A stretch of DNA of 52,793 nucleotides from the IMG/VR virus record IMGVR_UViG_3300032294_002470, positions 1-52,793 of that record, one strand, 5' to 3'. Every line of letters begins with the position of its first letter. The first letter of the stretch is position 1. A model generated the notes under the pieces. The model did not search any database, was not told where the DNA came from, and saw only the letters and a list, made by a program, of their open reading frames with translations. Below are positions 4,725 to 46,025 of the stretch, in pieces. The position numbers and the translations under genes were made by a program. The DNA is from a virus.

Positions 4725-4727
4725 TTT

Positions 4728-5250: not shown

Positions 5251-5251
5251 A

Positions 5252-13971: not shown

Positions 13972-14288
13972 GAGGTTAGTAATTGAATAAGTAGATAAGA
14001 CAATTTGTAACCGGTGAATGCTCCGAGAGCCGACGGAATTGGAAACACTATTAGTTTTCCTAATTGGGTTACGTATTTCGGCCTATTCACGATTGTGCCC
14101 ATGTAAAAGTAGTAGGCAATGTATCCGAATAAAACAGCAACATCAGTTCTTGTTGCAATGAATACTACAAGAGTTGCGCCAATAAAACCGAATGTGAAGT
14201 TATCTCTGATACCTTCCCAGACTTCAGCAGCGGTTGCCTCGTTCCAATCCTTTACTATTTTTTTGAATGTTGCTTTTTGTCTTCTCAT
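13968..14288 (-). CDS. Membrane protein, 106 aa
   Basis: Hydrophobic segments at about residues 32-62 and 80-103 suggest two to three TM helices. The N terminus is basic. It overlaps the kinase gene start by 4 nt. The role is unknown. Confidence 0.6.
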   Translation of the reverse strand: MRRQKATFKKIVKDWNEATAAEVWEGIRDNFTFGFIGATLVVFIATRTDVAVLFGYIAYYFYMGTIVNRPKYVTQLGKLIVFPIPSALGAFTGYKLSYLLIQLLTS

Positions 14289-15783: not shown

Positions 15784-15789
15784 AAACGG

Positions 15790-15863
15790 TGGACCTTTCA
15801 GGATTTGAACCTGAGACCTTCGCATTATGAGTGCGCTGCTCTAACCAGCTGAGCTAAAAGTCC
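15790..15863 (-). tRNA. tRNA-Met(CAT) or Ile2
   Basis: Acceptor GGACTTT pairs with AAGGTCC, the D arm is GCTC/GAGC, and the anticodon loop is CTCATAA. It lacks the GGG/CCC anticodon stem of initiators. Lysidine-modified Ile2 cannot be excluded. No CCA is encoded. Confidence 0.9.
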
Positions 15864-15865
15864 AA

Positions 15866-15950
15866 TGGTGCCGCCGGCAGGACTCGAACCTGCGAAGCCC
15901 GAAGGCAAGGGATTTACAGTCCCTCGTAATTGCCACTATACGACGTCGGC
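15866..15950 (-). tRNA. tRNA-Tyr(GTA)
   Basis: Class II tRNA with acceptor GCCGACG/CGGCGGC, anticodon loop CTGTAAA and a long variable arm. CCA is encoded. Confidence 0.92.
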
Positions 15951-15959
15951 ATGATTTTG

Positions 15960-16031
15960 CTGGGATAGGAGGGATCGAACCTCCGACCTTAGAGTTAACA
16001 GCTCTCTGCTCTACCGCTGAGCTATATCCCA
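15960..16031 (-). tRNA. tRNA-Asn(GTT)
   Basis: Acceptor TGGGATA/TATCCCA and anticodon loop CTGTTAA. CCA is not encoded. Confidence 0.9.
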
Positions 16032-16036
16032 ATTTG

Positions 16037-16113
16037 TGGTTGGCAATGCAGGACTCGAACCTGCGGCCTCCTCCGTATCAGAGAGGTGCTCTAACCAACT
16101 GAGCTAATTGCCA
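16037..16113 (-). tRNA. tRNA-Ile(GAT)
   Basis: Acceptor TGGCAAT/ATTGCCA and anticodon loop CTGATAC. CCA is encoded. Confidence 0.92.
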
Positions 16114-16121
16114 ATTTATTG

Positions 16122-16196
16122 TCGGGATAGGAGGATTCGAACCTCCAGCCTCCTGCTCCCAAAGCAGGCGCGATAACCTGGTTACGCTATATCCCG
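16122..16196 (-). tRNA. tRNA-Pro(TGG)
   Basis: Acceptor CGGGATA/TATCCCG and anticodon stem CCTGC/GCAGG around TTTGGGA. Confidence 0.9.
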
Positions 16197-16463
16197 AAAT
16201 TTGCTCCATGCTGAGACGTGTACGAAGGCTAGATTTTAACGGGTTACTCTGACTGTTTCGAGAACCATCACCGTGCAGCTTTTGCCGCTTCAGCTTTTTC
16301 ATTAGTGTCTTACCACATAAAAACCTGTCAATCCTTACGTCGGCGATGCAGGATCTTGCTATCGTTAGTCCGAATCGATACCTCATTAGGTCGAGGATTT
16401 TTTTACCACCATCGCTTTATTTAAAGAATGCGACCAATCTTACTGAGCATCTCTTACTCATTG
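16197..16463. other. tRNA-cluster spacer, no gene recognised
   Basis: There is no credible ORF or cloverleaf here. A hairpin CGAT-GCA ... TGC-(T)ATCG lies near 16350. It may be processed leader or trailer RNA. Confidence 0.4.
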
Positions 16464-16536
16464 TACAACCTGCAAGATTCGAACTTGCGACCTTTTCCAT
16501 GTCAAGGAAACGCTCTTCCAGCTGAGCTAAGGCTGC
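16464..16536 (-). tRNA. tRNA-Val(GAC)
   Basis: Acceptor GCAGCCT/AGGTTGT (two G-U pairs), anticodon stem TTTCC/GGAAA, loop TTGACAT. Confidence 0.85.
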
Positions 16537-16541
16537 ATGGA

Positions 16542-16592
16542 GTCGGAAAGACATGCTGGCTCATATTGAGTTTGGACGCAAGCCCTTCCGAC
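16542..16592. repeat. Inverted repeat in tRNA spacer
   Basis: GTCGGAA (16542-16548) pairs with TTCCGAC (16586-16592) around a 37-nt loop with inner GGCT/AGCC pairing. It fills the gap between two tRNA-Val genes. Confidence 0.5.
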
Positions 16593-16598
16593 ATTTAG

Positions 16599-16670
16599 TA
16601 GTCCCTGAGAATTTCGAAATCCCGACCCTCGCCATGTAAAGACGATGCTCTGCCTCTGAGCTAAAGGACT
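16599..16670 (-). tRNA. tRNA-Val(TAC)
   Basis: Acceptor AGTCCTT/AGGGACT, anticodon stem TCGTC/GGCGA, loop TTTACAT. The T stem has a weak pair next to the loop. Confidence 0.82.
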
Positions 16671-16752
16671 AGTTGACACGCTTTCGCCCCCTGTATGACG
16701 TGTCTTAGATGCCCGTGGTCCGCCACAGCGAATAAGGGAGCCACCCACATTC

Positions 16753-17211
16753 TTATTTGCAAATCTTGTCCGCGATGTATGTTGCTGAGATTGCATACGG
16801 TTTGCAGCGTGGAGTGTAACCTGAACCTTCAACGTAACCTAATGCTGCTCTTAGTAAAGAGTTAGAGCCGTATCGAGGATCAGGGTTTAGGTCAACATCA
16901 ATGAAGGTTGGTTTACAGACGCCATTCGCTTCCAAGTACTGAGCGAGCTCAACAGAGTCCTCAACCTCTTGCCATAGTCTCGTGAATCGGTTAACGACCT
17001 TTGGAAGGGTCTTTTTTGAATAGATCACGTGCCCACCGCTATTTCCGTAATGTAGAACAATGACTAACGCGTAAACTGTTTTCTCACCAATCGTTTGACT
17101 ATCCGATCCGATATACATTCTGATATTATCAGCTTCCGCTAGTTTTGTTTCCAAATAGGGAATGAGATCGATGTAGGCTCCGTTTGTTAGTGATTGAAAT
17201 TTACGGTCCAT
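16753..17211 (-). CDS. RNase H-like protein (DUF458/YkuK type), 152 aa
   Basis: YIGSDSQTIGEKTVYALVIV resembles the first acidic strand of an RNase H-like fold, followed by FIDVDLNPD and a C-terminal helix. This matches DUF458-type proteins common in Bacteroidota and phages. I place the start at 17211 (MDRKFQSLTNG); the longer frame reads through tRNA sequence. It sits inside the tRNA cluster. Confidence 0.75.
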   Translation of the reverse strand: MDRKFQSLTNGAYIDLIPYLETKLAEADNIRMYIGSDSQTIGEKTVYALVIVLHYGNSGGHVIYSKKTLPKVVNRFTRLWQEVEDSVELAQYLEANGVCKPTFIDVDLNPDPRYGSNSLLRAALGYVEGSGYTPRCKPYAISATYIADKICK

Positions 17212-17229
17212 TGTTTTAGGTGTTATTTT

Positions 17230-17304
17230 TGGAGCAGGTGGGGAGAATCGAACTCCCATCTCCAGATTGGAAGTCTGGAGTAATAGCCGTTATACGACAC
17301 CTGC
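17230..17304 (-). tRNA. tRNA-Gly(TCC)
   Basis: Acceptor GCAGGTG/CACCTGC, anticodon stem CCAGA/TCTGG, loop CTTCCAA. CCA is encoded. Confidence 0.92.
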
Positions 17305-17440
17305 ATTACAACTTTTGTATTATCCTAAGAGTTGCCAACTTCGCCGACATACGATTCGGGGGACGTCCACGCCAACACACGTTAAGTGTCTGTAATTCCC
17401 ATCTTCGATCCTTAATTGTGCACCACCAGAGGGCTGTTTG
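17305..17440. other. tRNA-cluster spacer
   Basis: No gene is recognised. It holds a short ACAC...GTGT hairpin near 17375. Confidence 0.35.
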
Positions 17441-17513
<73 letters not shown>

Positions 17514-17523
17514 AATTTGGGTT

Positions 17524-17631
17524 GGATCAGAGGCCTTCTGCCAACCGAGACCTTGTCGTTAACTTTCGTCAGAGCGTACCAAGACACCATTTAATTTTTC
17601 GACTTGAGGTAGTCACGGCCGCCTCTGATCC
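17524..17631. repeat. Long-range 11 bp inverted repeat in tRNA spacer
   Basis: GGATCAGAGGC (17524-17534) is perfectly complementary to GCCTCTGATCC (17621-17631). The 86-nt loop contains no ORF. It could be a structured RNA co-transcribed with the tRNAs. Confidence 0.6.
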
Positions 17632-17685
17632 TCTCAAGTCTATTTCGTATCTTGGCAAAATGCGGCTCGACCCTGATACGCTGTG

Positions 17686-17758
17686 AGCCTCCTGCCGGGA
17701 TCGAACCAGCGACCTACTGATTACAAATCAGTTGCTCTACCAGCTGAGCTAAGGAGGC
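17686..17758 (-). tRNA. tRNA-Thr(TGT)
   Basis: Acceptor GCCTCCT/AGGAGGC, anticodon stem ACTGA/TCAGT, loop TTTGTAA. Confidence 0.92.
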
Positions 17759-17811
17759 AGTTTAGCGATTATGTTGCAACCAACGTTTTCTTGGTGAAGA
17801 ACGACCTGGTG

Positions 17812-17885
17812 TGGACCGTGAGAGACTCGAACTCTCGACCCCCTGCGTGCAAGGCAGGTGCTCTAGCCATCTGAGCTAACAGCCC
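17812..17885 (-). tRNA. tRNA-Ala(TGC)
   Basis: Acceptor GGGCTGT/ACGGTCC, anticodon stem CCTGC/GCAGG, loop CTTGCAC. Confidence 0.9.
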
Positions 17886-18032
17886 TTAAAAGAACAACGT
17901 TGGAGTACCCGTCTCGCTCCAATCTTAACAGCTTCATCAGAGTTTTCTCTGGGCCCAGGCTGAGGGTGATGACCTCTTTGGTCCGGCCGTGATTGTCGAC
18001 ATCACATTGGCCGGAGAGACCGTCATTCTTAG
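17886..18032. other. Structured tRNA spacer
   Basis: It contains GTTGGAG...CTCCAAT and TCCGGCC (17982-17988)/GGCCGGA (18009-18015), the latter around a GTCGAC palindrome. No gene is recognised. Confidence 0.45.
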
Positions 18033-18128
18033 TAGCGATAGAGGGATTCGAACCGGTGAAAGATCTTCATGAAACTCTTTCCTCTGCATCGGTGCTCATG
18101 ACTGCGACCGACTCTCCAAGGTATCGCC
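18033..18128 (-). ncRNA. tRNA-like element, non-canonical (96 nt)
   Basis: Acceptor arms GGCGATA and TATCGCT pair over 7 bp and a GGTTCGAATCC T-loop is present. The T stem is broken (ACCGG against CCCTC). No normal D arm is seen. A TCGGT/ACCGA stem carries a 13-nt loop. I cannot assign an anticodon. It may be a decayed class II tRNA or a tRNA mimic. Confidence 0.5.
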
Positions 18129-18231
18129 ATTTGGATATTTCAGAAGAGGTTACTAAACTTCAGCTCTTCAAAGCTTCTCAGCTTACAACGTTCCGTCAAT
18201 TGTTTACGCTGCTAACTTATTCGATAAAGCG

Positions 18232-18303
18232 TAGTCCGTACGGGAATCGAACCCGTATTTCACCCGTGAAAGGGGCGTGTCCTAACCGTTAGACGAACGG
18301 ACC
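18232..18303 (-). tRNA. tRNA-Glu(TTC)
   Basis: Acceptor GGTCCGT/ACGGACT, anticodon stem CGCCC/GGGTG, loop CTTTCAC. Confidence 0.92.
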
Positions 18304-18336
18304 ATTATCTAAGACTAGGTATAGAAATACCTGGAG

Positions 18337-18410
18337 CGGACTGGACGGGACTCGAACCCGCGACCTCCGCCGTGACAGGGCGGCATTCTAACCAGCTGAA
18401 CTACCAGTCC
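18337..18410 (-). tRNA. tRNA-Asp(GTC)
   Basis: Acceptor GGACTGG/CCAGTCC, discriminator G, anticodon stem CCGCC/GGCGG, loop CTGTCAC. Confidence 0.92.
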
Positions 18411-18462
18411 GTTTCTCTTTAGTTCACTCCTGCCCCGTAGAGCATACCTTGAAGGGCTGTTT

Positions 18463-18515
18463 ATCCATGCAAATCTACCTGAAGAGCAATTGGTTTGTGC
18501 TCGACGTACATGGAT
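18463..18515. repeat. Inverted repeat in tRNA spacer
   Basis: ATCCATG (18463-18469)/CATGGAT (18509-18515) with inner GAGCA/TGCTC. It forms a two-step hairpin between tRNA-Asp and the next tRNA. Confidence 0.5.
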
Positions 18516-18519
18516 CCGG

Positions 18520-18597
18520 TGGTAGGTGCACCAGGATTTGAACCTGGATCTTTTTTACTTAACGTAAAATTGCTCTAACCGCTTGAGCTATACACCT
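18520..18597 (-). tRNA. tRNA with ambiguous anticodon
   Basis: Acceptor AGGTGTA/TGCACCT, a canonical D arm, T arm CCAGG/CCTGG and encoded CCA are all present. The anticodon hairpin is TTTTAC-GTTAA-GTAAAA. With a 5 bp stem and 7-nt loop (CGTTAAG) the anticodon is TTA, which would read UAA. Shifting by one base gives GTT (Asn). Neither register has U at position 33. An Asn tRNA with a lost base is the simplest explanation. Confidence 0.7.
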
Positions 18598-18598
18598 A

Positions 18599-18707
18599 TG
18601 GTGATTAGAGCCGGACTCGAACCGGATACCGTGCAGGACGGAATAGACAACCTTACCTCTTTCGAGTTGGGGACTTGGAAACCATCCCGCATTACGTCCA
18701 TCTAATC
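18599..18707 (-). ncRNA. Oversized class II tRNA-like element (109 nt)
   Basis: Acceptor GATTAGA/TCTAATC, T arm CCGG-TTCGAGT-CCGG and encoded CCA are canonical. CCGT/ACGG could be a variable arm. CAAC/GTTG would be an anticodon stem with a 14-nt loop starting TCGAAAG (CGA would be Ser). The D loop is about 21 nt. It is far longer than a normal tRNA. Confidence 0.55.
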
Positions 18708-18741
18708 AATGATCTAAGACTAGTTACAAAAATGGTCACGG

Positions 18742-18813
18742 TTGCGAGGGATGGATTCGAACCACCGACCCTTGGGTTATGAGCCCAATGAGATACCACT
18801 TCTCCACCTCACA
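18742..18813 (-). tRNA. Initiator tRNA-fMet(CAT)
   Basis: Anticodon stem TTGGG/CCCAA gives the three G-C pairs next to loop CTCATAA that mark initiators. The D arm GGAGAAGTGGTATCTC resembles bacterial fMet. The acceptor TGTGAGG/CCTCGCA has T1-A72, a weak first pair. Confidence 0.85.
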
Positions 18814-18822
18814 ATATATTTG

Positions 18823-18924
18823 CTGACTAAAAAGGATTTGAACCTTAATCCTGAGCTCCAGTTAACCGTTTGCTAAAGCAACTGCCATTACTCCGTTCCT
18901 CTGTGCACCATTACACCATAATCA
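18823..18924 (-). ncRNA. Oversized tRNA-like element (102 nt)
   Basis: Acceptor TGATTAT/TTAGTCA (last pair weak), a GTGTAATGGTGCAC D arm and T arm AAGG-TTCAAAT-CCTT are present. The anticodon region is enlarged: CAGTT/AACTG encloses a 16-nt loop containing TTTAGCAAA. No anticodon can be assigned. Confidence 0.5.
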
Positions 18925-18974
18925 ATCGGATGCTTCGAATCATCCAGTCTTAGGGTAATTAATCCCAAGATTTG

Positions 18975-19045
18975 TTGTCCCGCAAGGATTCGAACCTCAA
19001 TTCTCTGGACCAAAACCAGATGTGCTGCCGTTACACCACAGGACA
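18975..19045 (-). tRNA. tRNA-Gln(TTG)
   Basis: Acceptor TGTCCTG/CGGGACA, anticodon stem TCTGG/CCAGA, loop TTTTGGT. Confidence 0.92.
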
Positions 19046-19092
19046 ATTTGCGATCTTCAATATGTCAAAGAACTCTCTTTGTTTGTTATTAA

Positions 19093-19101
19093 TAATATAC
19101 C
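19093..19101 (-). promoter_or_regulatory. Early-type promoter box for the tRNA operon
   Basis: GGTATATTA on the minus strand, about 48 nt upstream of tRNA-Gln. It could drive the tRNA block running to 15.8 kb. Confidence 0.55.
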
Positions 19102-19145
19102 ATAATTTGTATTAACTTAATTACTTTCTTTCGAAAGATTTTTAA

Positions 19146-19829
19146 TTATTTAGTAGACTCAATCCGTTTCCTAAGATTGTCAATTGAAATTCCATCATTT
19201 TTGAATCTAGAGTCTGACCCTACTACTATTATTAATGATAAATCATTTTCAGCTACTGCTGACTTCATTTTTTTTCTCATTTGGTTAGTTACCCAACCTT
19301 TATATTCAACGTATGCATTTAATTCCTTCACGTAAAAATCAGGATAAAACGTTCGTATTCTCCCTTCATCTTTATATTTGAAGCCTCTATTATTTCTATT
19401 CCACGTAACATTTAACTCATCAAATAGATTCGCAATTAATATTTCTTCAGAGTTTAAAAACATTTTTTCATTACTTGATGAAATATATTCATAAACTTTA
19501 CTTTTACCGCCTCCTTCTCTTAATCCGCCTGATCCCTTTTTTCTAAGTTCTCCACTTTTTGGCTTAATTCCAGTTAAACACTTTGATCTATATAATTTTC
19601 GGCAATCAATTGATTCACATACTTTCGTTCTAGTGATTCTACTAGTAAATTCGATACCGCAAATTACACAATCTTTAGTTTTCGAATGCTTAGTTAACGA
19701 TTTCGAAACTTTTTCAGATATTTCAGATCGTTTAGCTTTAGTACTAAACGATCTGCTACATTTCACAGAACAAAATCTACTGCTACCATATTCTCCAGTA
19801 TGCGAATTTTGGCAAGTTTCACAAATCAT
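19146..19829 (-). CDS. Putative PD-(D/E)XK homing endonuclease with zinc ribbons, 227 aa
   Basis: The N terminus has Cys pairs (CETC, FCSVKC) and a second set (CVICG, KVCESIDC), which are small zinc fingers used for DNA binding. The C-terminal half has TFYPDFYVKELNAYVEYKG, a PD...ExK nuclease core. It is more A/T-rich than neighbours and sits inside the tRNA cluster, both typical of free-standing homing endonucleases. The frame and length look intact. Confidence 0.75.
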   Translation of the reverse strand: MICETCQNSHTGEYGSSRFCSVKCSRSFSTKAKRSEISEKVSKSLTKHSKTKDCVICGIEFTSRITRTKVCESIDCRKLYRSKCLTGIKPKSGELRKKGSGGLREGGGKSKVYEYISSSNEKMFLNSEEILIANLFDELNVTWNRNNRGFKYKDEGRIRTFYPDFYVKELNAYVEYKGWVTNQMRKKMKSAVAENDLSLIIVVGSDSRFKNDGISIDNLRKRIESTK

Positions 19830-19886
19830 AACATCAAAGTTTAATATTATTTATACTCGAACTAATGATTTTAGTTTTGATAGTTT

Positions 19887-19959
19887 GCACGAGTACCAGG
19901 ACTCGAACCTGGAACAACGATTTTGGAGATCGGCATGATACCATTTCACCATACTCGTG
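19887..19959 (-). tRNA. tRNA-Trp(CCA)
   Basis: Acceptor CACGAGT/ACTCGTG, anticodon loop CTCCAAA between CGAT/ATCG. Confidence 0.9.
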
Positions 19960-19976
19960 TATTTCAAAGAACTAGT

Positions 19977-20049
19977 TGCGGGACCCGGACTTGAACCGGG
20001 AACTTCAGCTTATGAGACTGACGAGATAGCCGTTTCTACGCATCCCGCA
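19977..20049 (-). tRNA. tRNA-Met(CAT) or Ile2
   Basis: Acceptor TGCGGGA/TCCCGCA, anticodon stem TCAGT/GCTGA, loop CTCATAA. Third CAT tRNA in the window. No initiator-type stem. Confidence 0.87.
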
Positions 20050-20067
20050 ATTTTATATTTTTGTTAG

Positions 20068-20142
20068 TGATCCCGACAGGATTCGAACCTGTGACTCCCA
20101 TATTAAAAGTATGGTACTCTAAACCTGCTGAGTTACGAGATC
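20068..20142 (-). tRNA. tRNA-Lys(TTT)
   Basis: Acceptor GATCTCG/CGGGATC, anticodon stem CCATA/TATGG, loop CTTTTAA. Confidence 0.92.
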
Positions 20143-20203
20143 ATAGTGAGGCCCGTAACTCCATGAGAGTCATTAGGCCTTTATCGTTTTCGTTTCATAT
20201 TTT

Positions 20204-20398
20204 TCATTTTCTATATTTTGTTTTTCTGTTGTGTTTCCAAGTTTTGAACTCTCTCCATTTATGATTGGGCAGATCGCCATGATGCCATGACCAGCCTTCT
20301 TCGTAATACGGAGGATACAACCATTTTAATAGAGTTCGATTGTACGCTTTACTATTTTCTGCTTTGTTCAGTTTTGCTCTGTTTCGATTTTTTGACAT
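20204..20398 (-). CDS. Small basic protein, 64 aa
   Basis: The frame MSKNRNRAKLNKAE... is rich in Lys, Arg and Trp (WLYPPYYEEGWSWHH). It lies between tRNA-Phe and tRNA-Lys, with no overlap. No family is recognised; RNA or DNA binding is possible from composition only. Confidence 0.5.
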   Translation of the reverse strand: MSKNRNRAKLNKAENSKAYNRTLLKWLYPPYYEEGWSWHHGDLPNHKWREFKTWKHNRKTKYRK

Positions 20399-20457
20399 TT
20401 CGCCTTAGGTTTTTTTACCTAATGCATTGTGTACTTCTTCATCTTATTTTATTTTTT

Positions 20458-20533
20458 TGGCGGTGCGGGGCAGGATCGAACTGCCGACACCAGGATTTTC
20501 AGTCCTGTGCTCTACCGTCTGAGCTACCGCACC
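20458..20533 (-). tRNA. tRNA-Phe(GAA)
   Basis: Acceptor GGTGCGG/CCGCACC, anticodon stem CAGGA/TCCTG, loop CTGAAAA. CCA is encoded. Confidence 0.93.
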
Positions 20534-21282: not shown

Positions 21283-21846
21283 TTATTTTTTGATAGCTGC
21301 AAGCTTTTCGTTAGCTGCATCAATCTTAGAGATCTTAGAATCAAAGAAGCTCTTGAATTTAGTAACGATTGATTTAATCTTGTCAGAAATCTTAGAGATT
21401 ACAGCCTTAGCCTTATCGGTTAACTTACCTTCGTCTAATTTATTGATTTCAAAAGAGTGCTTAACTGATGTGATTGCAGTATTCTGTCTAACGCATTCGT
21501 TAATGATTGCTTGAGCAGCTTCATCAACCATTGTTAGAGCCTGTTCTACAGCTTTTCCGTAAGCGACTGAAGTTCCTTCTCCACCGTATCTTGTTATTTT
21601 CATTACGTACTTCTCAGTAGTTGCCAATTTATCGTTAAGAACTTTCATTGCATCAAAGATTGGTTTAACTGATGCGTCGAACTCCTTTAGCTCTCCTTCG
21701 ATAGCTTTAGTTTCAGTAGTTAACACTTTCAATCTTTCTTTGATTTCGTGAATTCTTTCTAACTTAGCAATGATTGCCTTGTCTTTTAGTTGTGCTTCAT
21801 TAACTTTTGATTCGTTAACAAATTCTGTGAACTTTAACAGTTTCAT
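21283..21846 (-). CDS. Capsid-targeted helical protein, 187 aa
   Basis: Leader MKLLKFTEFVNES fits the tag consensus. The rest is helical and Lys/Ala-rich with coiled-coil stretches, like T4 internal proteins. Two late-type promoter boxes lie upstream. The enzyme content, if any, is not visible. Confidence 0.7.
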   Translation of the reverse strand: MKLLKFTEFVNESKVNEAQLKDKAIIAKLERIHEIKERLKVLTTETKAIEGELKEFDASVKPIFDAMKVLNDKLATTEKYVMKITRYGGEGTSVAYGKAVEQALTMVDEAAQAIINECVRQNTAITSVKHSFEINKLDEGKLTDKAKAVISKISDKIKSIVTKFKSFFDSKISKIDAANEKLAAIKK

Positions 21847-27096: not shown

Positions 27097-27921
27097 ATGT
27101 TACTAAAAAATGGATCTTCAGGAGCTGAAGTTAAACAGCTTCAGGAAAAACTTGGTCTTACAGCAGACGGTCAATTTGGACCAGGCACTGAGGCTAAGGT
27201 AAAAGAATGGCAAGCTGCTAACGGCCTATCTGCTGATGGTATTGTCGGCCCAGCCTCTTGGTCAAAATTAATGGGAGCAGCCCCAGCTCAAGCAGCAGCC
27301 CCAGTTGCAATCCCAGCTAGTAATTTTAAACTAGCTAATCTAAAAGGTCATATCCCTGAGGCAGTTATTGCTCAAATCCCGGACACAGCCGCTAAATTCA
27401 ATATTACAACCCCATTGCGTTTAGCTCATTTCTTGGCACAATGTGGTCATGAATCAGCTGGATTTAAAGCTGTATCTGAAAATTTAAACTATTCTGCAGA
27501 TGGATTAGTTAAAATATTTGGAAAGTATTTCAACGCATCAACAGCAGCAGGTTATGCTCGTAACCCTGAAAAGATTGCAAACAAAGTATACTCATCAAGA
27601 ATGGGTAATGGAAATGAAGCATCTGGTGAGGGTTGGAAACATAGAGGTCGTGGATACATCCAATTAACTGGTAAAGACAACTACAAAGCATTTGATGCAA
27701 CGGTAGAAGACGATATCTTAGCAAACCCAGATCTAGTAGCTACTAAATATCCTTTAGCATCAGCTGCATTCTTCTTTAACAAAAACGGATTGTGGGCTAT
27801 TTGTGATAAAGGAGCCGACGATGCTACCGTGACGGCTGTTACTAAACGAGTTAACGGCGGAACTATCGGATTGGCTGATCGCTTAAAACACTTTAAAGAG
27901 TATTACGCGCTATTAAAATAA
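27097..27921 (+). CDS. Endolysin: PG-binding domain plus GH19 hydrolase, 274 aa
   Basis: Residues 1-60 are a peptidoglycan-binding_1 domain (GSSGAEVKQLQEKLGL, DGQFGPGTE, DGIVGPASW). A Pro/Ala linker follows. Residues about 85-270 are a GH19 chitinase-like lysozyme with catalytic Glu at about 119 (AQCGHESAGF) and GRGYIQLTG. It cleaves glycan strands at lysis. It is one of very few plus-strand genes, with its own late promoter and terminator. Confidence 0.92.
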   Translation: MLLKNGSSGAEVKQLQEKLGLTADGQFGPGTEAKVKEWQAANGLSADGIVGPASWSKLMGAAPAQAAAPVAIPASNFKLANLKGHIPEAVIAQIPDTAAKFNITTPLRLAHFLAQCGHESAGFKAVSENLNYSADGLVKIFGKYFNASTAAGYARNPEKIANKVYSSRMGNGNEASGEGWKHRGRGYIQLTGKDNYKAFDATVEDDILANPDLVATKYPLASAAFFFNKNGLWAICDKGADDATVTAVTKRVNGGTIGLADRLKHFKEYYALLK

Positions 27922-29254: not shown

Positions 29255-29715
29255 TATTGCTTTTTAGAATGAGTTTTCTTTGTAATCATTTCTTCTGGCG
29301 TGAGCAGTGCTCTGCCGTATTCTTTCATGCGCTCAATGTATCTCTCCTTGACTCTTTCACTAATCGCAAGCGGTGTACCTTCATCGTCAATTCTTACGAA
29401 CTTGATATTGGTATGAGTGACCACTGTCTGAAGTCCAGTGTAAACGTTGTGCTTACGAACCTCAATGTAGAGAGTAACTGAGGTTTTTCCGAAATCCTTG
29501 ACCTCACCGTAAACTTTTAGGATATTACCGACCTTTACTGGTTTTGCAAAGATGAGCTCATCTATTTTTAGGGTAACGACTCTCTGAGTATCGCAGATTT
29601 GAGATGCGTAGCTAGCAGAGGCATCGTCTATTACTGAAAGGATTAGTCCGCCGAACATGGTATCATGAACTCCGATCTCGCTCTGTTTACAAATATGAGT
29701 TGTAATAAGTTCCAT
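29254..29715 (-). CDS. Hotdog-fold acyl-CoA thioesterase (YciA-like), 153 aa
   Basis: MFGGLILSVIDDASASYA holds the catalytic Asp helix of YciA/BACH-type thioesterases, and RVVTLKIDELIFAKPVKVGN follows in the usual order. It should cleave acyl-CoA. It is rare in phages; one may think of lipid remodelling or CoA recycling (inference). Confidence 0.82.
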   Translation of the reverse strand: MELITTHICKQSEIGVHDTMFGGLILSVIDDASASYASQICDTQRVVTLKIDELIFAKPVKVGNILKVYGEVKDFGKTSVTLYIEVRKHNVYTGLQTVVTHTNIKFVRIDDEGTPLAISERVKERYIERMKEYGRALLTPEEMITKKTHSKKQ

Positions 29716-30419
29716 TATTTGTTCTTTCTTTTTTTAGCAGTCATTTCTTCCTTTTTCATATCGGCTATTTTAACTCCATATTTTTCAACCCATATATTGT
29801 AAACGGATTTTCCATACATTGGATTTTTATTACCTGAGAAATCAATTTTACTCATTGGATTATTTTTACCTCTAATATCTCTAGTCTCAGCTGCTTCTTT
29901 TAATTTGATCTTATGCTCTTCTGTAAATATTTTACCCTTATTTGATTCGCTTATTTTCTTTTTGGTTTCGTCTGAATGAGTTTTTCCTTGAAGTGGAGCA
30001 ATTCCTCCATTTTCATAATACTTATTTAAACCTTTACTAATTCCAACTTTATTTTTTTCAGATAATGGAAGACCTTTAGTTTTTCCAGTTCTATTATCTG
30101 AGATATTTTTTTTCCACTGATTAATTTCTTCAATTGTTAAGTATTCTCTAATATCTCCGCCTTGACCGCCTTCATGTACATTGTAAAAGTCTCGTCTATT
30201 TACTGCATCCATTTTTTCAATCCAATATTTTTCTCGACTTAATAAAATTTCACGAGTTTTGCAAGTTTCAAGAATTTCCTTTTTAAAATTAGTCCTTCCG
30301 TATTTTTTAATAGCGATCTTTATATACTTCCCTGATCCAAAATAATTAGGATTATCAATTGAGTCTATTCCAATGTATTTTTTTCCGTTAATTAAATTAG
30401 TTACTAAATATACTAGCAT
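29715..30419 (-). CDS. GIY-YIG homing endonuclease (Seg-like), 234 aa
   Basis: MLVYLVTNLINGKKYIG is the GIY-YIG core (Y-L-V ... Y-I-G), with the catalytic Glu in EKYWIEKMDA. The C-terminal part has NUMOD3-like repeats (GKTHSDETKKKISES, GKIFTEEHKIKLKEA). It is A/T-rich compared with neighbours and free-standing, inserted between prs/thioesterase and the 2H gene. A late-type promoter is upstream. Confidence 0.88.
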   Translation of the reverse strand: MLVYLVTNLINGKKYIGIDSIDNPNYFGSGKYIKIAIKKYGRTNFKKEILETCKTREILLSREKYWIEKMDAVNRRDFYNVHEGGQGGDIREYLTIEEINQWKKNISDNRTGKTKGLPLSEKNKVGISKGLNKYYENGGIAPLQGKTHSDETKKKISESNKGKIFTEEHKIKLKEAAETRDIRGKNNPMSKIDFSGNKNPMYGKSVYNIWVEKYGVKIADMKKEEMTAKKRKNK

Positions 30420-30469: not shown

Positions 30470-31021
30470 TTAGTTCCATGCTTCTTCTATGCGGTCGCCG
30501 CCTGGTTTTGAGTAAACGATTTTGTTTGGATTTACTTCATACGTTTTATTATTGAATTTCTCAACGTATTTCTTGCCCATTCCAGATTTCAAGTAACCTA
30601 TCGTCGCGTGAGGATGATAGTCTGGAAAATTGGTGGTGTGAGGTAGTTCACAAAGCTTGGCATTAATTTCATATAGTGCCGAGTTCTGCACATCGAACTT
30701 AAGTACATCATAGTTCTCATTTTCAAATAGGGAAGCATTGACTAACATTAGCGGGCCTATTGGTTGAGACCTGCAAATGTCCATTACAGTATCATCATCA
30801 ATTTCGTTTGAGTGTAGTCCGTAAAGTAGAGTGGTATGAGGTTCGTCCTCTAATCCAAAAGATCGATCGCCCTCTTCGGTATAAACGTCGTCTAAATCTA
30901 TTTCAGAATGAAATTCCTGCATTTGTGGAAAATCGAAATACACCATGGCACAGCCATAGGAATGAGAATCGCCCTTCTTTTCAAAAAGACCTGCGATGAA
31001 TTGTGTGAATGATTTTATCAT
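30470..31021 (-). CDS. Capsid-targeted 2H phosphoesterase (Acb1-like?), 183 aa
   Basis: The leader MIKSFTQFIAGLFEKK resembles the capsid-targeting tag. Two H-x-T motifs define the 2H fold: PHTTLLYG (His62, Thr64) and YHPHATIGY (His138, Thr140). The family includes RNA 2',3'-cyclic phosphodiesterases and T4 Acb1 (gp57B), which degrades CBASS cyclic nucleotides. Delivery with the DNA would suit an anti-signalling enzyme. RNA-end processing is the alternative. Confidence 0.78.
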   Translation of the reverse strand: MIKSFTQFIAGLFEKKGDSHSYGCAMVYFDFPQMQEFHSEIDLDDVYTEEGDRSFGLEDEPHTTLLYGLHSNEIDDDTVMDICRSQPIGPLMLVNASLFENENYDVLKFDVQNSALYEINAKLCELPHTTNFPDYHPHATIGYLKSGMGKKYVEKFNNKTYEVNPNKIVYSKPGGDRIEEAWN

Positions 31022-31024
31022 AGG

Positions 31025-31408
31025 TTAAGCGGTTTTACGGGTTAAACTTTCTGAATCTAGGTATTCTTCGTAGAGTTCGCCTATTTTACACGAGCCGTCC
31101 TGTCTGAATACGACTAATGCATTTTCCAATTTAGGAGATTCTTCATTCTCGAATCTAGCATCCATCTCATAAAGAACATAAACATCGGTCTCTAATAGTC
31201 TAGCTAGTTCAGATAGTTCTTCGCGACTTAGAGTTAAGTCAACATCGCCGTACCAGATCTTTCCTTCGTTCTTGGTGCAGACGTTTGCATTGAATACTGC
31301 AAGGTTTTTTGGATTGCGATTTCGATAGTTACTCTTTGAACCGGAAATCATTCGACCGTTCATGCCTAATATTTTACTGGCAGTTTCTTTAAATATTTTC
31401 ATTTTCAA
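31025..31408 (-). CDS. Hypothetical protein, 127 aa
   Basis: The protein (MKMKIFKETASKI...) contains DVDLTLSREELSELARLLET and VYVLYEMDARFE. The second Met is an alternative start. It is 3 nt upstream of the 2H gene. Its MKIFKETASKILG start is tag-like but lacks the F-x-E ending, so I do not count it as tagged. Confidence 0.6.
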   Translation of the reverse strand: MKMKIFKETASKILGMNGRMISGSKSNYRNRNPKNLAVFNANVCTKNEGKIWYGDVDLTLSREELSELARLLETDVYVLYEMDARFENEESPKLENALVVFRQDGSCKIGELYEEYLDSESLTRKTA

Positions 31409-31547: not shown

Positions 31548-32909
31548 TTACTTTAATGTGGTTTTAAGGTTTTTCTTTAGTTCAACTAAATCTTCTCTGT
31601 ACATATCAATCGGCTCCTTCTTTTTAATCTCAGCCAATTCAGCCTTCTTTTCAGCAACCTCTTTTAAGAGCTGCTCGTAAGTCTCTTTAGTTAATGAATG
31701 AATCGGCATGTTCAATAGGTAATTATACGATCCATTAACCTCATCAAAACCTGCGGTCTGTAAGTAACTAACGATTTCTTTACGAGGAACATTATTGATC
31801 TTTAGTTTACCATCAATGATTAACTTTACGAACTTCGCTCTGTTTGATAAGTAGACCAATTCTTCGCCGTATTTCTTTATTAGAAATGCCTTACGTTTTG
31901 AATAGAAACCTAATCTGAAATTAACGAAGTATTCCACCACCTGCGAAACATCTTCGAATATGATTAGCTTGCCCTTTTCGTTCAAGCACGTCAAGTTCTC
32001 AGTCTCAGTCTCAGTCATCTTTAGAGTCTGATCCAATTTACCCTTTGCGATTAAGTCGGCAAGAGTTGCTCTTGCGAATTTAATGGTGTAATTGATTCCA
32101 TCAGTTGAGTTATCTTCATAAGAGTAAATGATACCCCTGTCCTGTAAGGAATTAAGATGAGTCTCGTACTTCTGAAAGGTCATTGACGGCGGCAACTCTG
32201 TGATGTTGACAGTTGTCGTATTTTGAATCTCATAGACTCCACGCATTACGTACTGATTCGTTCCAGTAACGTTCTCAACTGGGCCAGAGTATTCCTTCCA
32301 CCAAGGCAGGAGCTTACCAATCTTTTTTCCATCAAGCACCTTTAGGCAAGAATCAACAAGATCAAGAGGATTTCTGTTTAGGATATTAGTAGCGAATCCT
32401 ACTGCAATTCCCGAACTACCGTTTAATAAAACGGTCGGAATGATTGGTAAAAAGAATTTGGGTTCAATCGTATTGCCCTCTTCTACCTGATTTTCCAATA
32501 GTTCAAAGTCTTTATACAAGAGTCTGAAATTACCGGTCAATTTAGTAGAGATGTAACGCGCAGCACCCGCTTCAGGCGATCTTAGGGAACCGAACTGGCC
32601 GATCTCTTCAAGTAAAGGTAGGGAATTCTTAAATGATTGTGCCATTCCAATGATTGCACCATTTAATGAGCCATCGCCATGATGATAATGAGCATCGGCT
32701 GCAATCTTTCCGCCTAACTGAAATATCTTTAGTGGCTTCTCATTGCCTGACCTCCAAACTTTATCAGCAATGTAAATGATCTTACGAGCCGTAGGTTTAA
32801 ATCCATCAATTACTGAGGGGATCGCTCGATTTTCTAACGTGTACATACCGTACATCGCGTAATCTTGATCGAGGTATTCAGTTACAGTTTTATTCTTTAA
32901 TTGAATCAT
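31548..32909 (-). CDS. Type II topoisomerase subunit A (T4 gp52-like), 453 aa
   Basis: The DNA-cleaving subunit. The catalytic Tyr is at about 119 in GAARYISTKL, after QFGSLRSPEAG. VIDGFKPTARKIIY and HYHHGDGSLNGAI are conserved. At 453 aa it lacks the C-terminal wrapping domain of GyrA, as T4 gp52 does. It pairs with the large subunit at 34706-36541. An early-type promoter lies directly upstream. Confidence 0.92.
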   Translation of the reverse strand: MIQLKNKTVTEYLDQDYAMYGMYTLENRAIPSVIDGFKPTARKIIYIADKVWRSGNEKPLKIFQLGGKIAADAHYHHGDGSLNGAIIGMAQSFKNSLPLLEEIGQFGSLRSPEAGAARYISTKLTGNFRLLYKDFELLENQVEEGNTIEPKFFLPIIPTVLLNGSSGIAVGFATNILNRNPLDLVDSCLKVLDGKKIGKLLPWWKEYSGPVENVTGTNQYVMRGVYEIQNTTTVNITELPPSMTFQKYETHLNSLQDRGIIYSYEDNSTDGINYTIKFARATLADLIAKGKLDQTLKMTETETENLTCLNEKGKLIIFEDVSQVVEYFVNFRLGFYSKRKAFLIKKYGEELVYLSNRAKFVKLIIDGKLKINNVPRKEIVSYLQTAGFDEVNGSYNYLLNMPIHSLTKETYEQLLKEVAEKKAELAEIKKKEPIDMYREDLVELKKNLKTTLK

Positions 32910-33862: not shown

Positions 33863-34633
33863 TTAAATTTTACCAATGTCAAAAGTTATTGGAGTTTGGG
33901 CTGTTTTCCACAGCTGACTCACCAAGCTATTCTCGTTTGGTTTTTTATAATTTACCAATAATTCAATCGATTGTTTCTTATTGGCCGCCAACCAAGTACC
34001 GTAGAACTTTGCAAAATCTTCCATTTGATCGGTCAGGTCGATGCAGCCATGAGAACCGGCAAGGGATCCGCCGTGTACGTAAAAGCTTCCACGACCATAA
34101 GTCTCTGTTCCTGGCGCGATCTTGATTGGGGCCCTAAAGTTACCCCAACCTATTTTACTGTAAAGTGTGTCAGCCTGAAACGCTTTGCCAGCATCAGTCT
34201 TTGCGCTTGCAGTACCGGTAATTTGATTCCATAGAGCTTCAAGCGAACCAATTTCAGATTTATCACCCACTCGAGTTTCAATTCGACCGACCGTGTACTT
34301 TCCTGGTGGAATTGGACCGGCGTTTTTATCCTTGGACCATTCTTCTGGGCTCTTGACAAGACGGCTAATTAGTTTACCCCAATCTCCAGGAGGTGTGTTT
34401 CTCCAAGTCAAACCGCTAATTGCTTTCCATGCTTTAACGACAGCACCATTAACAATCCATTTTAATTGATCTCCATCAAATAGTAGTGAGGCGTTTGGTA
34501 TCAAGACCTGGTCCGTACCAACCTTCTTTTTAGCAACATCCTTGCCTGCTTGAGAGGTTGCCGCTAATGAGTCAGCTGCCTCAGCTATCAACTGCGAGGC
34601 TTTAAAATTGTTGAATGACATTATTTGATTCAT
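33863..34633 (-). CDS. Capsid-targeted L,D-transpeptidase-like protein, 256 aa
   Basis: The leader MSFNNFKASQLIAEA (from Met5) ends like T4 internal proteins (F-I-A-E-A). The C-terminal half has GRGSFYVHGG ... SHGCIDLTDQM, the H-x(n)-SHGC active site of YkuD/Tlde1-type enzymes. IPPGKYTVGRIETR is the usual preceding strand. It may reshape the cell wall on injection. A late-type promoter is 21 nt upstream. Confidence 0.78.
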   Translation of the reverse strand: MNQIMSFNNFKASQLIAEAADSLAATSQAGKDVAKKKVGTDQVLIPNASLLFDGDQLKWIVNGAVVKAWKAISGLTWRNTPPGDWGKLISRLVKSPEEWSKDKNAGPIPPGKYTVGRIETRVGDKSEIGSLEALWNQITGTASAKTDAGKAFQADTLYSKIGWGNFRAPIKIAPGTETYGRGSFYVHGGSLAGSHGCIDLTDQMEDFAKFYGTWLAANKKQSIELLVNYKKPNENSLVSQLWKTAQTPITFDIGKI

Positions 34634-37102: not shown

Positions 37103-38257
37103 TCAAATGGGGTTGACTAGGGAAATTTGTTCTACACTATGTAGTGCTCCGTCGACCCAACCTTGCTTCTGAGCTACCATTTCACCGATAACCCAAACAA
37201 GGCTATTTGGATTCTGGGCCCGTCTGATAAATTCCTCTCTCGATTTATATTTACTGGATAGAGGTTTGTAATAGTGGGTGCCTTCTTTCCAATAAAACTT
37301 CTTCATTCCGGAAAGCGTTGCTCCCGTAAAGTCATCGTTAAGAAGATTTTGAAAATAGGATTCTGGTTTAGACTTAAGGGCTTCTGCATCTGCATTATCG
37401 GAGTATGCAACATTAAAAACGTTTCCTTTTATTGGAATTATTTTTCTTAAATTAGAATTAACTATCGTATACGTATTGACTTCTAAATTTTCAACATTAG
37501 CAAAAGCTTTTATAAAACTCTGAGATTCTATATCGTCGTATATTGAGTCCTTTAAAAATTTTCTTAAAACATTCACAGTAACTGCAAAGACTATTCCGTC
37601 TGCTGCATACTTTCCGTTAACTAAAAACTTATCTTCGTTTTTCGTAATTTTGTTTACTTCAACATTAAGCTCAATATTCTTTTCTCCAATTTCTTGGATA
37701 AGTTTTTCGACTACAACAGACCAGTCTACATTTTCAGCTTCATAGCCGGAAACATTATCGTCTAGCCCGTAGTTGTTAATGGTGTCCATAAACCCAGCAT
37801 TCTCGAAATCTGTGTAACCCATTCCTTTAACAAAGCTCTCATATCTCTCGCCTAAAGCTTTTTGACCAAACTCTTTAAAGGTCATTTTCTCCCCTTGATA
37901 ATCTTTAGACTTTTTCTTGAGTTCTTTAATCATCTCTTTCAAGGGCGGCTCGGGAAATGAGTAGTTCATTTCTATCTCGTAAGTCTTTCTCTTTATTCCT
38001 AAATCCTTAAGAAGTTTCTGAAGAGTTTTATCTTTGTCTACTCTAGAAAATTGAGCACCAGTTGGAACTTTAACTCCATCTACTTCTTCCATAGATACTC
38101 GTCCGCCACATTTACTTTCTTTTTCAAGAATAGTCACTTTAACTTCAGGCCTTCTTTTCTTTAAAAGATAAGCACAATAAAGGCCGGCAATCCCTCCTCC
38201 AATAATAACGATAGACTGGGGATTTTTAAAATCTTCGAATAGTTTTATCAATTTCAT
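37103..38257 (-). CDS. Capsid-targeted FAD-dependent amine oxidase-like protein, 384 aa
   Basis: The leader MKLIKLFEDF fits the tag. Directly after it SIVIIGGGIAGLYCAYLL is the FAD-binding Rossmann motif, with KESKCGGRVSME the second dinucleotide-binding segment. The C-terminal LVWVIGEMVAQKQGWVDGAL is the third flavin contact. It resembles amine oxidases and protoporphyrinogen oxidases. The substrate is unknown. Its ATG overlaps the stop of the nucleotidyltransferase gene (TAATG). Confidence 0.8.
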   Translation of the reverse strand: MKLIKLFEDFKNPQSIVIIGGGIAGLYCAYLLKKRRPEVKVTILEKESKCGGRVSMEEVDGVKVPTGAQFSRVDKDKTLQKLLKDLGIKRKTYEIEMNYSFPEPPLKEMIKELKKKSKDYQGEKMTFKEFGQKALGERYESFVKGMGYTDFENAGFMDTINNYGLDDNVSGYEAENVDWSVVVEKLIQEIGEKNIELNVEVNKITKNEDKFLVNGKYAADGIVFAVTVNVLRKFLKDSIYDDIESQSFIKAFANVENLEVNTYTIVNSNLRKIIPIKGNVFNVAYSDNADAEALKSKPESYFQNLLNDDFTGATLSGMKKFYWKEGTHYYKPLSSKYKSREEFIRRAQNPNSLVWVIGEMVAQKQGWVDGALHSVEQISLVNPI

Positions 38258-39420
38258 TAGGATTTAGGTAGCTTGACTCCTGGAATTCCCATCAACTGAT
38301 TGCTTAATGCCCTAATCATTTGAACATGATTTGAAAATTTAACGGTTTCAAACCAGAAAGGAGTTTTAGTCTTTGAATTTAGAACAATTTGATAATCGCT
38401 TAGTCCTGCATATTTCTGTAGAGTCTGAGGATTGAACGCAACTGGCTTTGCAACCAAGTTTCCGCCTTCCTGACGAATCATCATTGGCGAAGTAAGCCCT
38501 ACCATGTTTACCCAACGACCCGCTCTTTCAACTTCTCTGGCCCAATCAATATAGAACACAAAAAGACGACGACCTCCCTCAACATCAGGGCCCATCACAA
38601 CGACGGTGTTACCCTTACCGAATGAAACGGACTCGTCTACTACATCAGCTTCAGTTGAGAATTTAGAATCAAGCGCGCCGGCTGGTTCTGAATAAATGTG
38701 AGAGTAAGCTTGCGATTTTAGATCAATTAATTTTCCGATCCAACCTTCATTACGTAATCTCTTAAAAACTAGATTTTCAACAGAGAACTCTCCGCCCTTG
38801 TGTGCAAGCTGTTCGTCTCTTGATCTTGAGATCTTCTTTTTTAGAACAGATGCTCGTTCCATAATATCTTTAGCTTCTTCAGGCCCAGCTCCTTGAATCT
38901 CTTCCATCATTTGCTTGATTGCATAAATGTAGTGGTCTGATTTTACCTGAACGTCTTTTGGATCGACAGTTGGTTGACTGTATTCCGGTTTTCTAAGCCA
39001 TTCACCTTTTAATAGAGAATAAAGGCCAGACGCCAAGTGTAACTGATTTATGTCTTGTGCATAGAGTTCAACATCATATCCTCCAATATTTACTGGATGT
39101 CTTTGATTCCAAACTGTCTTTAAACCTTCCATTGCAATCTTTACTAGTTCGACGTCCGGGTTTATCTTGGAAAGATCCATGATGACATGTACGTCAAAAT
39201 CAGAGTACTTGGTCCAGTTATAGTTGGCTAGGGATCCAGTAAGTTGAATGTCCTCAATTGGAGAACTAACTTTTAGGTCCTCGTAGAAATCATGAGCGAT
39301 CTGCAGAAGCTTGGTTCTGAGCTCAGGGTTAATTTCTTCTCCATCCCAGACCATTGGATTCAATTGATCTTGATAGAATTGACCCTCATTTATGAATTCG
39401 GTAAATTTAAAAAGTTTCAT
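38257..39420 (-). CDS. Capsid-targeted nucleotidyltransferase-domain protein, 387 aa
   Basis: The leader MKLFKFTEFINEG is a clear tag. Residues 59-82 (LTGSLANYNWTKYSDFDVHV) carry the G-S-x(n)-D-x-D signature of the Pol-beta nucleotidyltransferase fold. The C-terminal 200 residues are not recognised. It could nucleotidylate a host protein or RNA early in infection, by analogy to the T4 head-borne Alt enzyme; the target is unknown. A late-type promoter is 5 nt upstream. Confidence 0.78.
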   Translation of the reverse strand: MKLFKFTEFINEGQFYQDQLNPMVWDGEEINPELRTKLLQIAHDFYEDLKVSSPIEDIQLTGSLANYNWTKYSDFDVHVIMDLSKINPDVELVKIAMEGLKTVWNQRHPVNIGGYDVELYAQDINQLHLASGLYSLLKGEWLRKPEYSQPTVDPKDVQVKSDHYIYAIKQMMEEIQGAGPEEAKDIMERASVLKKKISRSRDEQLAHKGGEFSVENLVFKRLRNEGWIGKLIDLKSQAYSHIYSEPAGALDSKFSTEADVVDESVSFGKGNTVVVMGPDVEGGRRLFVFYIDWAREVERAGRWVNMVGLTSPMMIRQEGGNLVAKPVAFNPQTLQKYAGLSDYQIVLNSKTKTPFWFETVKFSNHVQMIRALSNQLMGIPGVKLPKS

Positions 39421-45143: not shown

Positions 45144-46025
45144 TTATTTTGTAGCAGCAGTGCCAGCCGAACCTGATGTTCCAGCAGAACCAACATTAAG
45201 GGCTGCACCGAACTGAGGTTTATAATTTTTTAGTAAAGAGTCTAATTGTAAAGCTTTGTCTTGGGCCTGCTTTTGTAAATTTGGATCTTGGGTTGCTCTA
45301 TATTCAGATTGAGCTTGGACTAATTTTGCAGTTAGAGCAGCTTTAACCTTAGGCTCTATTTCCTTTTCTTTAGCGTCCTTGTCGGCTGGAGTAGCAGCAG
45401 AGGCCTGAGCATCAAGTAGAGCCTTGATTGTAGCATCTTGGCCAGCAGCGGCTTGCAAGGCTGGATCGTTTATCATTCGTAAGTAAGCAGCGACCTGTTG
45501 TACACCAGCCGCTTGCATTGCTTTATCAAAACCAGCAGAAGCGGTTCCGAACATTTTATCAGCAGCATTGCTAGCTGAACCCGAAGTCCCAGCTTTCCCA
45601 GCTGAACCGGCTGAGCCAGTAGAATTGACTCCATCTAAAATATCAGAGATTGCATCGATCTTTGCAACCCCGTCCTGTTCGGTTACTTTGAATCCGTATC
45701 GAGCTGAAAACGCATAGTCTGGCTCTCCGTTAGGTAATGCAGGTAGTTTCCCAGACTGCTCAACTAATGCAATTCCGCCGATAGCTTTTAATTTAGAATT
45801 GACCGCATTATCCGAGATTGTTAACATTGCAACTATATTACTGCCTAAATCTTTAACTTTTGCAGCATCAGTTACTGCCATCATTTTGCCAAGTTTTTTA
45901 TTAGACAATTTGAAGATTTTTAAATAATCAGTCCATTTAACTTTGCCCGTATCTGCGAAAGTTGTCATTGGATCATTGGCTCCTTCTCTAATGAACGATT
46001 CAAATAATTTTATGTATTTTGGCAT
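45144..46025 (-). CDS. Capsid-targeted protein with Gly/Ser/Ala collagen-like linkers, 293 aa
   Basis: Leader MPKYIKLFESFIREG. The middle (GSAGSAGKAGTSGSASNA) and the C terminus (GSAGTSGSAGTAATK) are low-complexity Gly-Ser-Ala repeats around an Ala-rich helical domain. The N-terminal globular part (residues 20-130) is unrecognised. A late-type promoter is 23 nt upstream. Confidence 0.7.
   Translation of the reverse strand: MPKYIKLFESFIREGANDPMTTFADTGKVKWTDYLKIFKLSNKKLGKMMAVTDAAKVKDLGSNIVAMLTISDNAVNSKLKAIGGIALVEQSGKLPALPNGEPDYAFSARYGFKVTEQDGVAKIDAISDILDGVNSTGSAGSAGKAGTSGSASNAADKMFGTASAGFDKAMQAAGVQQVAAYLRMINDPALQAAAGQDATIKALLDAQASAATPADKDAKEKEIEPKVKAALTAKLVQAQSEYRATQDPNLQKQAQDKALQLDSLLKNYKPQFGAALNVGSAGTSGSAGTAATK

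Follow-up and report, generated by a model that had tools for sequence, protein, structure and literature searches.

Acb1 of phage T4 (gp57B; PF23474; phrog_755), which degrades the cyclic nucleotides of CBASS immunity, has a catalytic HxT/HxT tetrad formed by H44, T46, H113 and T115, and base-stacking residues W74 and F107 (PMC9117128). Studies of it have so far dealt with protein synthesised in the infected cell, and the words virion and packaged are absent from the main text of Hobbs 2022. Delivery of proteins with phage DNA is known from the T4 internal proteins IP1-3, injected anti-restriction proteins with a capsid-targeting sequence (CTS) that act against GmrSD (PMC3012670, PMC12373910); the propeptides of T4 internal proteins comprise 10-20 residues and are cut after glutamate (PMC5694885). 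Moreover, papers of 2017 and 2022 predicted that 2H domains of polyvalent phage proteins, fused there to MuF or portal domains, are injected to counter nucleotide signalling (PMC5512222, PMC9503650). An earlier note on the DNA analysed here had proposed a head-packaged 2H phosphoesterase as an injected anti-CBASS candidate, its author not having seen such injection described. The injected T4 proteins and the predicted MuF/portal 2H domains narrow that claim, but no description was found of a T4-type CTS on Acb1 itself or on an Acb1-like enzyme that stands alone, and text searches covering few subscription journals retrieved no paper on a packaged or injected Acb1. A literature search for virion proteomes of relatives found none. 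A 'phage phosphoesterase' described in EMBO Rep in 2025 (PMC12287305) was considered as related and set aside, being an unrelated metallophosphoesterase.

The window, that is, the whole 52,793-nucleotide stretch of viral DNA analysed (IMG/VR record IMGVR_UViG_3300032294_002470), belongs to a large environmental phage of T4-like type and encodes a 2H protein with the following features.

30470-31021, minus strand: gene for a 2H phosphoesterase of 183 amino acids with predicted head targeting; ATG start, from the open reading frame list and relatives
30980-31021, minus strand: leader MIKSFTQFIAGLFE, a predicted capsid-targeting sequence with a predicted prohead-protease cut after E14 (LFE/KK; a slash marks the cut), from leader comparisons and disorder
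30473-30961, minus strand: 2H phosphoesterase core, residues 21-183, from Pfam, the AlphaFold2 model and Foldseek
30830-30838, minus strand: first catalytic motif, H62-T-T64 (HTT), from conservation; aligns with Acb1 H44/T46
30602-30610, minus strand: second catalytic motif, H138-A-T140 (HAT), inside FPDYHPHAT, from conservation and alignment to Acb1

The 2H core with HTT and HAT motifs that had been read from the sequence was borne out by invariant histidines and a confident 2H-phosphoesterase model. H62, H138 and T140 were identical in 34 aligned, diverse family members, and position 64 was T in 33 of them and S in one. Relatives numbered 58 in a single-sequence scan of IMG/VR, and a profile scan gave 533 candidates. 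Compared with one relative (L002), the core showed 34 synonymous and 12 non-synonymous codon changes; changes against five relatives were mostly synonymous, and synonymous ones were also present within the leader, consistent with its being translated. The AlphaFold2 model had a mean pLDDT of 86.6, with most core blocks above 90 and residues 1-18 below 50 (disordered), and its named best Foldseek matches were 2H phosphoesterases. All 34 family members matched PF13563 (2'-5' RNA ligase superfamily), the window protein with E 3.3e-5 and 24.4 bits, under the 27-bit cut-off. By its two HxT/S motifs and the internally duplicated fold of the model, the window protein is a member of the 2H superfamily. 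A Pfam scan of the 183 residues revealed no MuF or portal fusion, only the leader and one 2H domain, and a phmmer search of the PDB with the single protein gave no match.

Sequence profiles place the window enzyme nearer to Acb1 than to canonical LigT/ThpR. Of all solved chains, two Acb1 proteins matched the family profile best (E 0.0014 and 0.0017). In hhalign comparisons the family matched the Acb1 profile with E 1.2e-9 (P 96%) and an E. coli-type ThpR profile with E 2.6e-3 (P 11%), a comparison tilted somewhat toward Acb1 by the shallower ThpR profile (81% mean column identity); Acb1 against ThpR gave E 2.9e-3. With single sequences, the values were 7.4e-5 for T4 Acb1, 3.9e-6 for FBB1 Acb1 and 1.3e-3 for ThpR. 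The phrog of the T4, FBB1 and Aeh1 Acb1 proteins, phrog_755, was matched by 34/34 members (2e-8 for the window protein) and was not matched by ThpR. This phrog, T4 Acb1 included, carries the label 'RNA ligase', which has been copied into many phage records. With TIGR02258, the LigT/ThpR equivalog, the window protein scored 18.8 bits against a cut-off of 65.7, while ThpR itself scored 149.8. PF23474 (Acb1) matched the window protein with E 1.7e-4 and 21.8 bits, under its curated 27-bit cut-off; several relatives exceeded this threshold (e.g. 33.3, 31.6, 27.3, 29.8 and 29.2 bits), and with the E threshold relaxed to 10, PF23474 still did not match E. coli ThpR.

Profile comparison aligned the HxT/HxT motifs of the window protein with the Acb1 catalytic tetrad, F99 with Acb1 W74 and F132 with Acb1 F107. 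As ThpR also has an aromatic residue adjoining the W74 position, only F132 is telling. The remaining Acb1 contacts, namely the stacking residue Y12 and the lid residues W147 (stacking) and E141 (adenine contact), fall outside the region aligned with the window protein, and the family has no conserved lid tryptophan (W at position 182 in 6/34). Profile similarity supports the proposed link to Acb1; with these residues unplaced, we call the protein Acb1-like and not Acb1. Structural comparison, which had been suggested as a check against Acb1 and LigT, confirmed the 2H fold but did not separate substrates: a penguinpox cGAMP phosphodiesterase was the top Foldseek match (2.9e-5), Acb1s and rotavirus VP3 (2.5e-4) were also among the best, Usb1 (5.7e-5) and a plant Appr>p cyclic phosphodiesterase (4.2e-4) were matched as well, the E-values of Usb1, ASCC1 and LigT were in the same range as those of the Acb1s, and the matches to cGAMP phosphodiesterase, Usb1, Acb1, VP3 and LigT all lay between 3e-5 and 5e-4.

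The N-terminal leader is very probably a T4-type CTS, judging by its form, the conservation of its site and the enrichment of such patterns at N-termini, which upholds the capsid-targeting-like leader first proposed. MIKSFTQFIAGLFE/KK has the same form as the start of T4 IPII and IPIII (MKTYQEFIAE/A), and T4 IPI and gp24 start with MKTFKEFTSTTTPVSTITE/A and MAKINELLRE/S, respectively. The window leader agrees with an N-terminal propeptide of 10-20 residues ending in an xE prohead-protease site, the cut itself being predicted. A loose pattern for such leaders was dropped as too permissive (25/88 window N-termini against 22/193 internal methionines). A stricter one was found at 7/88 N-termini against 1/475 internal segments in the window (p 1.3e-5) and at 22/315 against 37/2978 in a 271-kb relative (p 6e-9), an enrichment which argues that the leader type is not due to chance; the 2H leader fits a looser form of this strict pattern, its cut site lying three residues further on. 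As a control, a search of this kind was applied to T4 and recovered its internal proteins IPII and IPIII.

Around 15 other open reading frames of the window start like the 2H gene, e.g. with MKLFKFTEFINE/G, MKHIKLFEQFITE/F or MIMKSFKQFMNE/A. Sibling leaders include the following, the last five being assigned by the CTS pattern.

34580-34633, minus strand: leader MNQIMSFNNFKASQLIAE on a Tlde1/YkuD-type protein, with the late-promoter-like motif GATAAATAA just upstream
39385-39420, minus strand: leader MKLFKFTEFINE on a nucleotidyltransferase-like protein
48870-48905, minus strand: leader MIMKSFKQFMNE on a 476-aa protein
49072-49110, minus strand: leader MKHIKLFEQFITE
21811-21846, minus strand: leader MKLLKFTEFVNE on a 187-aa protein
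45984-46025, minus strand: leader MPKYIKLFESFIRE on a 293-aa protein

Leaders very similar to MKHIKLFEQFITE are carried by the 2H enzyme itself in three relatives (L336, L348 and L358). The L,D-transpeptidase-like protein with leader MNQIMSFNNFKASQLIAE (33863-34633, minus strand), behind its late-promoter-like motif, is possibly a packaged peptidoglycan enzyme. The protein with leader MKLFKFTEFINE (38257-39420, minus strand) weakly resembles the nucleotidyltransferase family PF01909 (E 0.0016), with a GS...DFD motif, also matches phrog_36119 and is possibly another injected enzyme. A FAD/NAD-binding, amine-oxidase-like protein (37103-38257, minus strand) has the leader-like start MKLIKLFEDF and may be a redox enzyme carried in the head.

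T4-type head targeting involves an S77 prohead protease and a gp23-type capsid protein, and both were found in relatives. The S77 protease was absent from the window, which is a genome fragment, and was matched in 18/28 records (13 above the cut-off), the 271-kb relative among them; a gp23-type capsid protein was present in 5/5 tested relatives. The head cluster of the 271-kb relative runs S77 protease, gp23-type capsid gene and two small leader genes, whose products start with MSNTVLNYAQFLLE/KK and MSDKNKNRLTPFKQFVIQE/NS, so that neighbours of the capsid gene carry this type of leader. The capsid precursor has an INE/S site at residue 53. In T4, the core protein genes are in the same cluster as the capsid gene.

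Across the 2H family, a [LIVFMT]xE site was found in residues 7-20 of 29/30 leader-bearing members, against 156/467 (33%) of other open reading frames from the same loci, with a p value (1.6e-12) that is optimistic because the sequences are related; after clustering at 60% identity, the site was present in 21/21 clusters against 10.3 expected. In sequence, the leaders vary widely (MKHIKLFEEFIAE/KSGD, MKAVKLFEEFILE/KKGD, MSIIKTFSAWVKSLNE/SSK, MKLKKYKQFIKE/SING and MIKLKSLLKE/AKP). The first of these is a textbook CTS on the enzyme, and the last, MIKLKSLLKE/A, represents other clades whose leaders resemble that of T4 gp24. Four members (L021, L023, L062 and L065) are leaderless. From the divergent leaders, the retained xE site and the few leaderless members, we read the leader as an exchangeable tag by which a conserved enzyme is delivered. 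In the 634-kb genome LR745206 (L060:9995-11308), a single protein of 438 aa combines leader MKLKKYKQFIKE, a 2H domain and a fused DEDD (RNase_T) exonuclease.

CTS-type leaders also occur on genuine Acb1 orthologues from five phages and an environmental contig.

L123:265-756, L130:401-895, L131:401-895, L132:401-871, L134:407-910 and L284: Acb1 orthologues with CTS-type leaders

The Acb1 proteins of Aeromonas phages start with MLKSFSEFTE/A (Aeh1), MMLSFSEFTE/T (PX29), MIRSFSEFITE/A (phiAS5) and MKTFSQFCE/N (Ahp1_CNU), and that of Pseudomonas phage Astolliot with MNFKEMLPFLIE/G; in these five, the leader precedes the GxYxAV start of the Acb1 core. Starts in environmental and jumbo-phage contigs include MISFTQFLAE/S and MMGFKDYLQE/Q. 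The Acb1 domain of Aeh1 is unquestioned (PF23474, E 9.8e-36). Among Acb1 clusters at 60% identity with leaders of at least 12 residues, the site was found in 15/16 against 5.3 expected. The CTS pattern was not enriched across the Aeh1 genome (11/340, p 0.19), and the Aeh1 case therefore relies on the likeness of its leader to those of T4 internal proteins and on conservation in relatives. T4 Acb1 begins with MMEFKDFSTG, a short N-terminus with no cut site, and its gene adjoins ipI. The leaders on genuine Acb1 suggest that some cultured phages may package Acb1.

Upstream of the 2H gene, and separated from it by 31025-31408, is a gene for a type IIA topoisomerase subunit (31548-32909); a topoisomerase gene neighbours the 2H gene in the 271-kb relative too. 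A thioesterase gene is located downstream of the 2H gene in both the window and the 271-kb relative, where the two overlap; in the window, a GIY-YIG homing endonuclease gene with NUMOD3 motifs (29715-30419, minus strand) has apparently been inserted between them. A motif resembling the T4 late promoter, ATAAATAA, probably has that function in this phage group; it precedes 10/19 CTS genes against 47/296 others in the 271-kb relative (p 4e-4), and the corresponding counts for the window are 4/6 and 8/82. Its occurrences upstream of 9922-10758, 27097-27921, 33863-34633, 45144-46025 and others involve CTS genes and an endolysin-like gene. Neither the 2H gene of the window nor that of 22/23 relatives had this motif; on the same strand, a copy precedes 33863-34633, five genes upstream in a series with mostly short gaps.

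We propose that the leader MIKSFTQFIAGLFE would recruit the enzyme into the prohead core late in infection, where an S77 (gp21-type) prohead protease would cut it after E14. Enclosed in the head together with the DNA, the mature enzyme would be ejected into a new host, where its HxT/HxT tetrad would hydrolyse an immune second messenger (CBASS cyclic di- or trinucleotides or related cyclic oligonucleotides) before phage gene expression. Packaging and cutting are strongly inferred from the leader comparisons and appear likely; if the enzyme is packaged, its ejection into the cytoplasm is also probable, with somewhat less confidence, and an immune-nucleotide substrate is slightly favoured. Taken as a whole, a head-targeted Acb1-like enzyme combining packaging with such a substrate has a little under an even chance of being correct. 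That the leader is not a packaging signal, and that the protein is an ordinary cytoplasmic 2H enzyme made after infection and acting on immune nucleotides or RNA, would agree with the leaderless relatives, with the lack of a late-promoter motif adjoining the 2H gene and with the short N-terminus of T4 Acb1, which has no cut site. It is nevertheless improbable given that 29/30 leader-bearing members retain the site despite divergent leaders, and that the leader, disordered in the model, is of a type common to capsid-adjoining genes and T4 internal proteins.

If the enzyme is packaged, other substrates must be weighed. RNA cyclic-phosphate processing had been named as the alternative in the earlier note, and the RNA-repair genes of the window make it a serious rival, although the weak LigT/ThpR similarity counts against it. 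An injected enzyme of this kind would act on RNAs that defence ribonucleases, such as anticodon nucleases and toxins, have cut, opening their 2',3'-cyclic phosphates so that phage or host ligases could mend the tRNAs. The window encodes two RNA ligases (3651-4724 and 12714-13841), a kinase-like AAA_33 protein (14285-14701), a CCA-adding enzyme (5252-5989) and 22 predicted tRNA genes; 20 predicted tRNA genes form a cluster (15788-20533, minus strand), and one of these, with anticodon tta (18520-18597), is a possible suppressor or a false call. RNA end-processing is the role assigned to many jumbo-phage 2H domains (PMC7824862), and PF13563 scored slightly better than Acb1 (24.4 against 21.8 bits). 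In one relative (L057), a CCA-adding enzyme with the leader-like start MKSFLKTLIFE is encoded three genes upstream of the 2H gene; it and a GNAT protein (L057:1836-3272 and 4406-5956), both with leader-like N-termini, hint that RNA-repair enzymes may be packaged too. However, the 2H gene is about 17-27 kb from the ligase genes and adjoins topoisomerase and thioesterase genes, and the TIGR02258 match and the profile similarity to ThpR are poor. The role is less likely than the preferred reading but is its main rival. Less probable than any of the above is a packaged enzyme serving as a Usb1-like RNA exonuclease or RNase on host transcripts, or hydrolysing the ADP-ribose cyclic phosphates that NAD-based immunity produces. 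The Foldseek matches to Usb1 and the plant Appr>p phosphodiesterase, the exonuclease-fused homologue of megaphage LR745206 and the RNase and cADPr roles listed for phage 2H domains (PMC5512222, PMC9503650) agree with it, but among characterised proteins sequence profiles favour Acb1.

Extending the preferred reading, an immune-nucleotide enzyme delivered from the head, we tentatively propose that many large T4-like and huge phages may carry a cyclic-oligonucleotide nuclease, genuine Acb1 included, in the head by means of a CTS that is cut off, so that the incoming particle, and not protein synthesised afresh, would disarm CBASS-type signalling. If Acb1 and its relatives do travel in the head, the phage would meet CBASS with the enzyme already present; this would explain the removal of very early signals and extend the injected anti-restriction strategy of T4 to nucleotide signalling. 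Anti-CBASS injection becomes testable in cultured phages (Aeh1, PX29, phiAS5), and with the leader pattern as a simple rule, candidate injected proteins of large phages can be listed from sequence.

Compared with known systems, the window protein shares with Acb1 the 2H fold, the tetrad, an FxDYxPHxT second motif, the phrog and aromatics at the W74 and F107 positions, and some Acb1 orthologues also have capsid-type leaders; it differs in its sub-threshold Pfam score, in having Y12, E141 and W147 unmatched, and in its leader with a predicted cut, which T4 Acb1 lacks. With T4 IPI-IPIII it shares a short N-terminal leader (MKTYQEFIAE/A or MKTFKEF...) with a cut, here predicted, after xE and the proposed delivery with DNA, whereas those small proteins inhibit GmrSD type IV restriction enzymes and are not 2H enzymes. 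LigT/ThpR RNA 2',3'-cyclic phosphodiesterases have the same fold and HxT motifs but are distant (E 2.6e-3, with the window protein under the TIGR02258 cut-off) and lack both a leader and the aromatic residue six positions before the second histidine. The penguinpox cGAMP phosphodiesterase (13-14% identity) and the C-terminal 2H domain of rotavirus VP3 (10-11%), a protein carried in the virion, are fold neighbours and viral 2H enzymes directed against immune nucleotides, but belong to animal viruses with other means of delivery. MuF- and portal-fused 2H domains are likewise predicted to be head-packaged and injected and proposed to act on immune nucleotides, but are fused to a structural protein, whereas the window enzyme is a separate protein whose T4-type leader is predicted to be removable. 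The combination of such a leader, found on genuine Acb1 orthologues too, with an Acb1-like enzyme that stands alone appears to be new.
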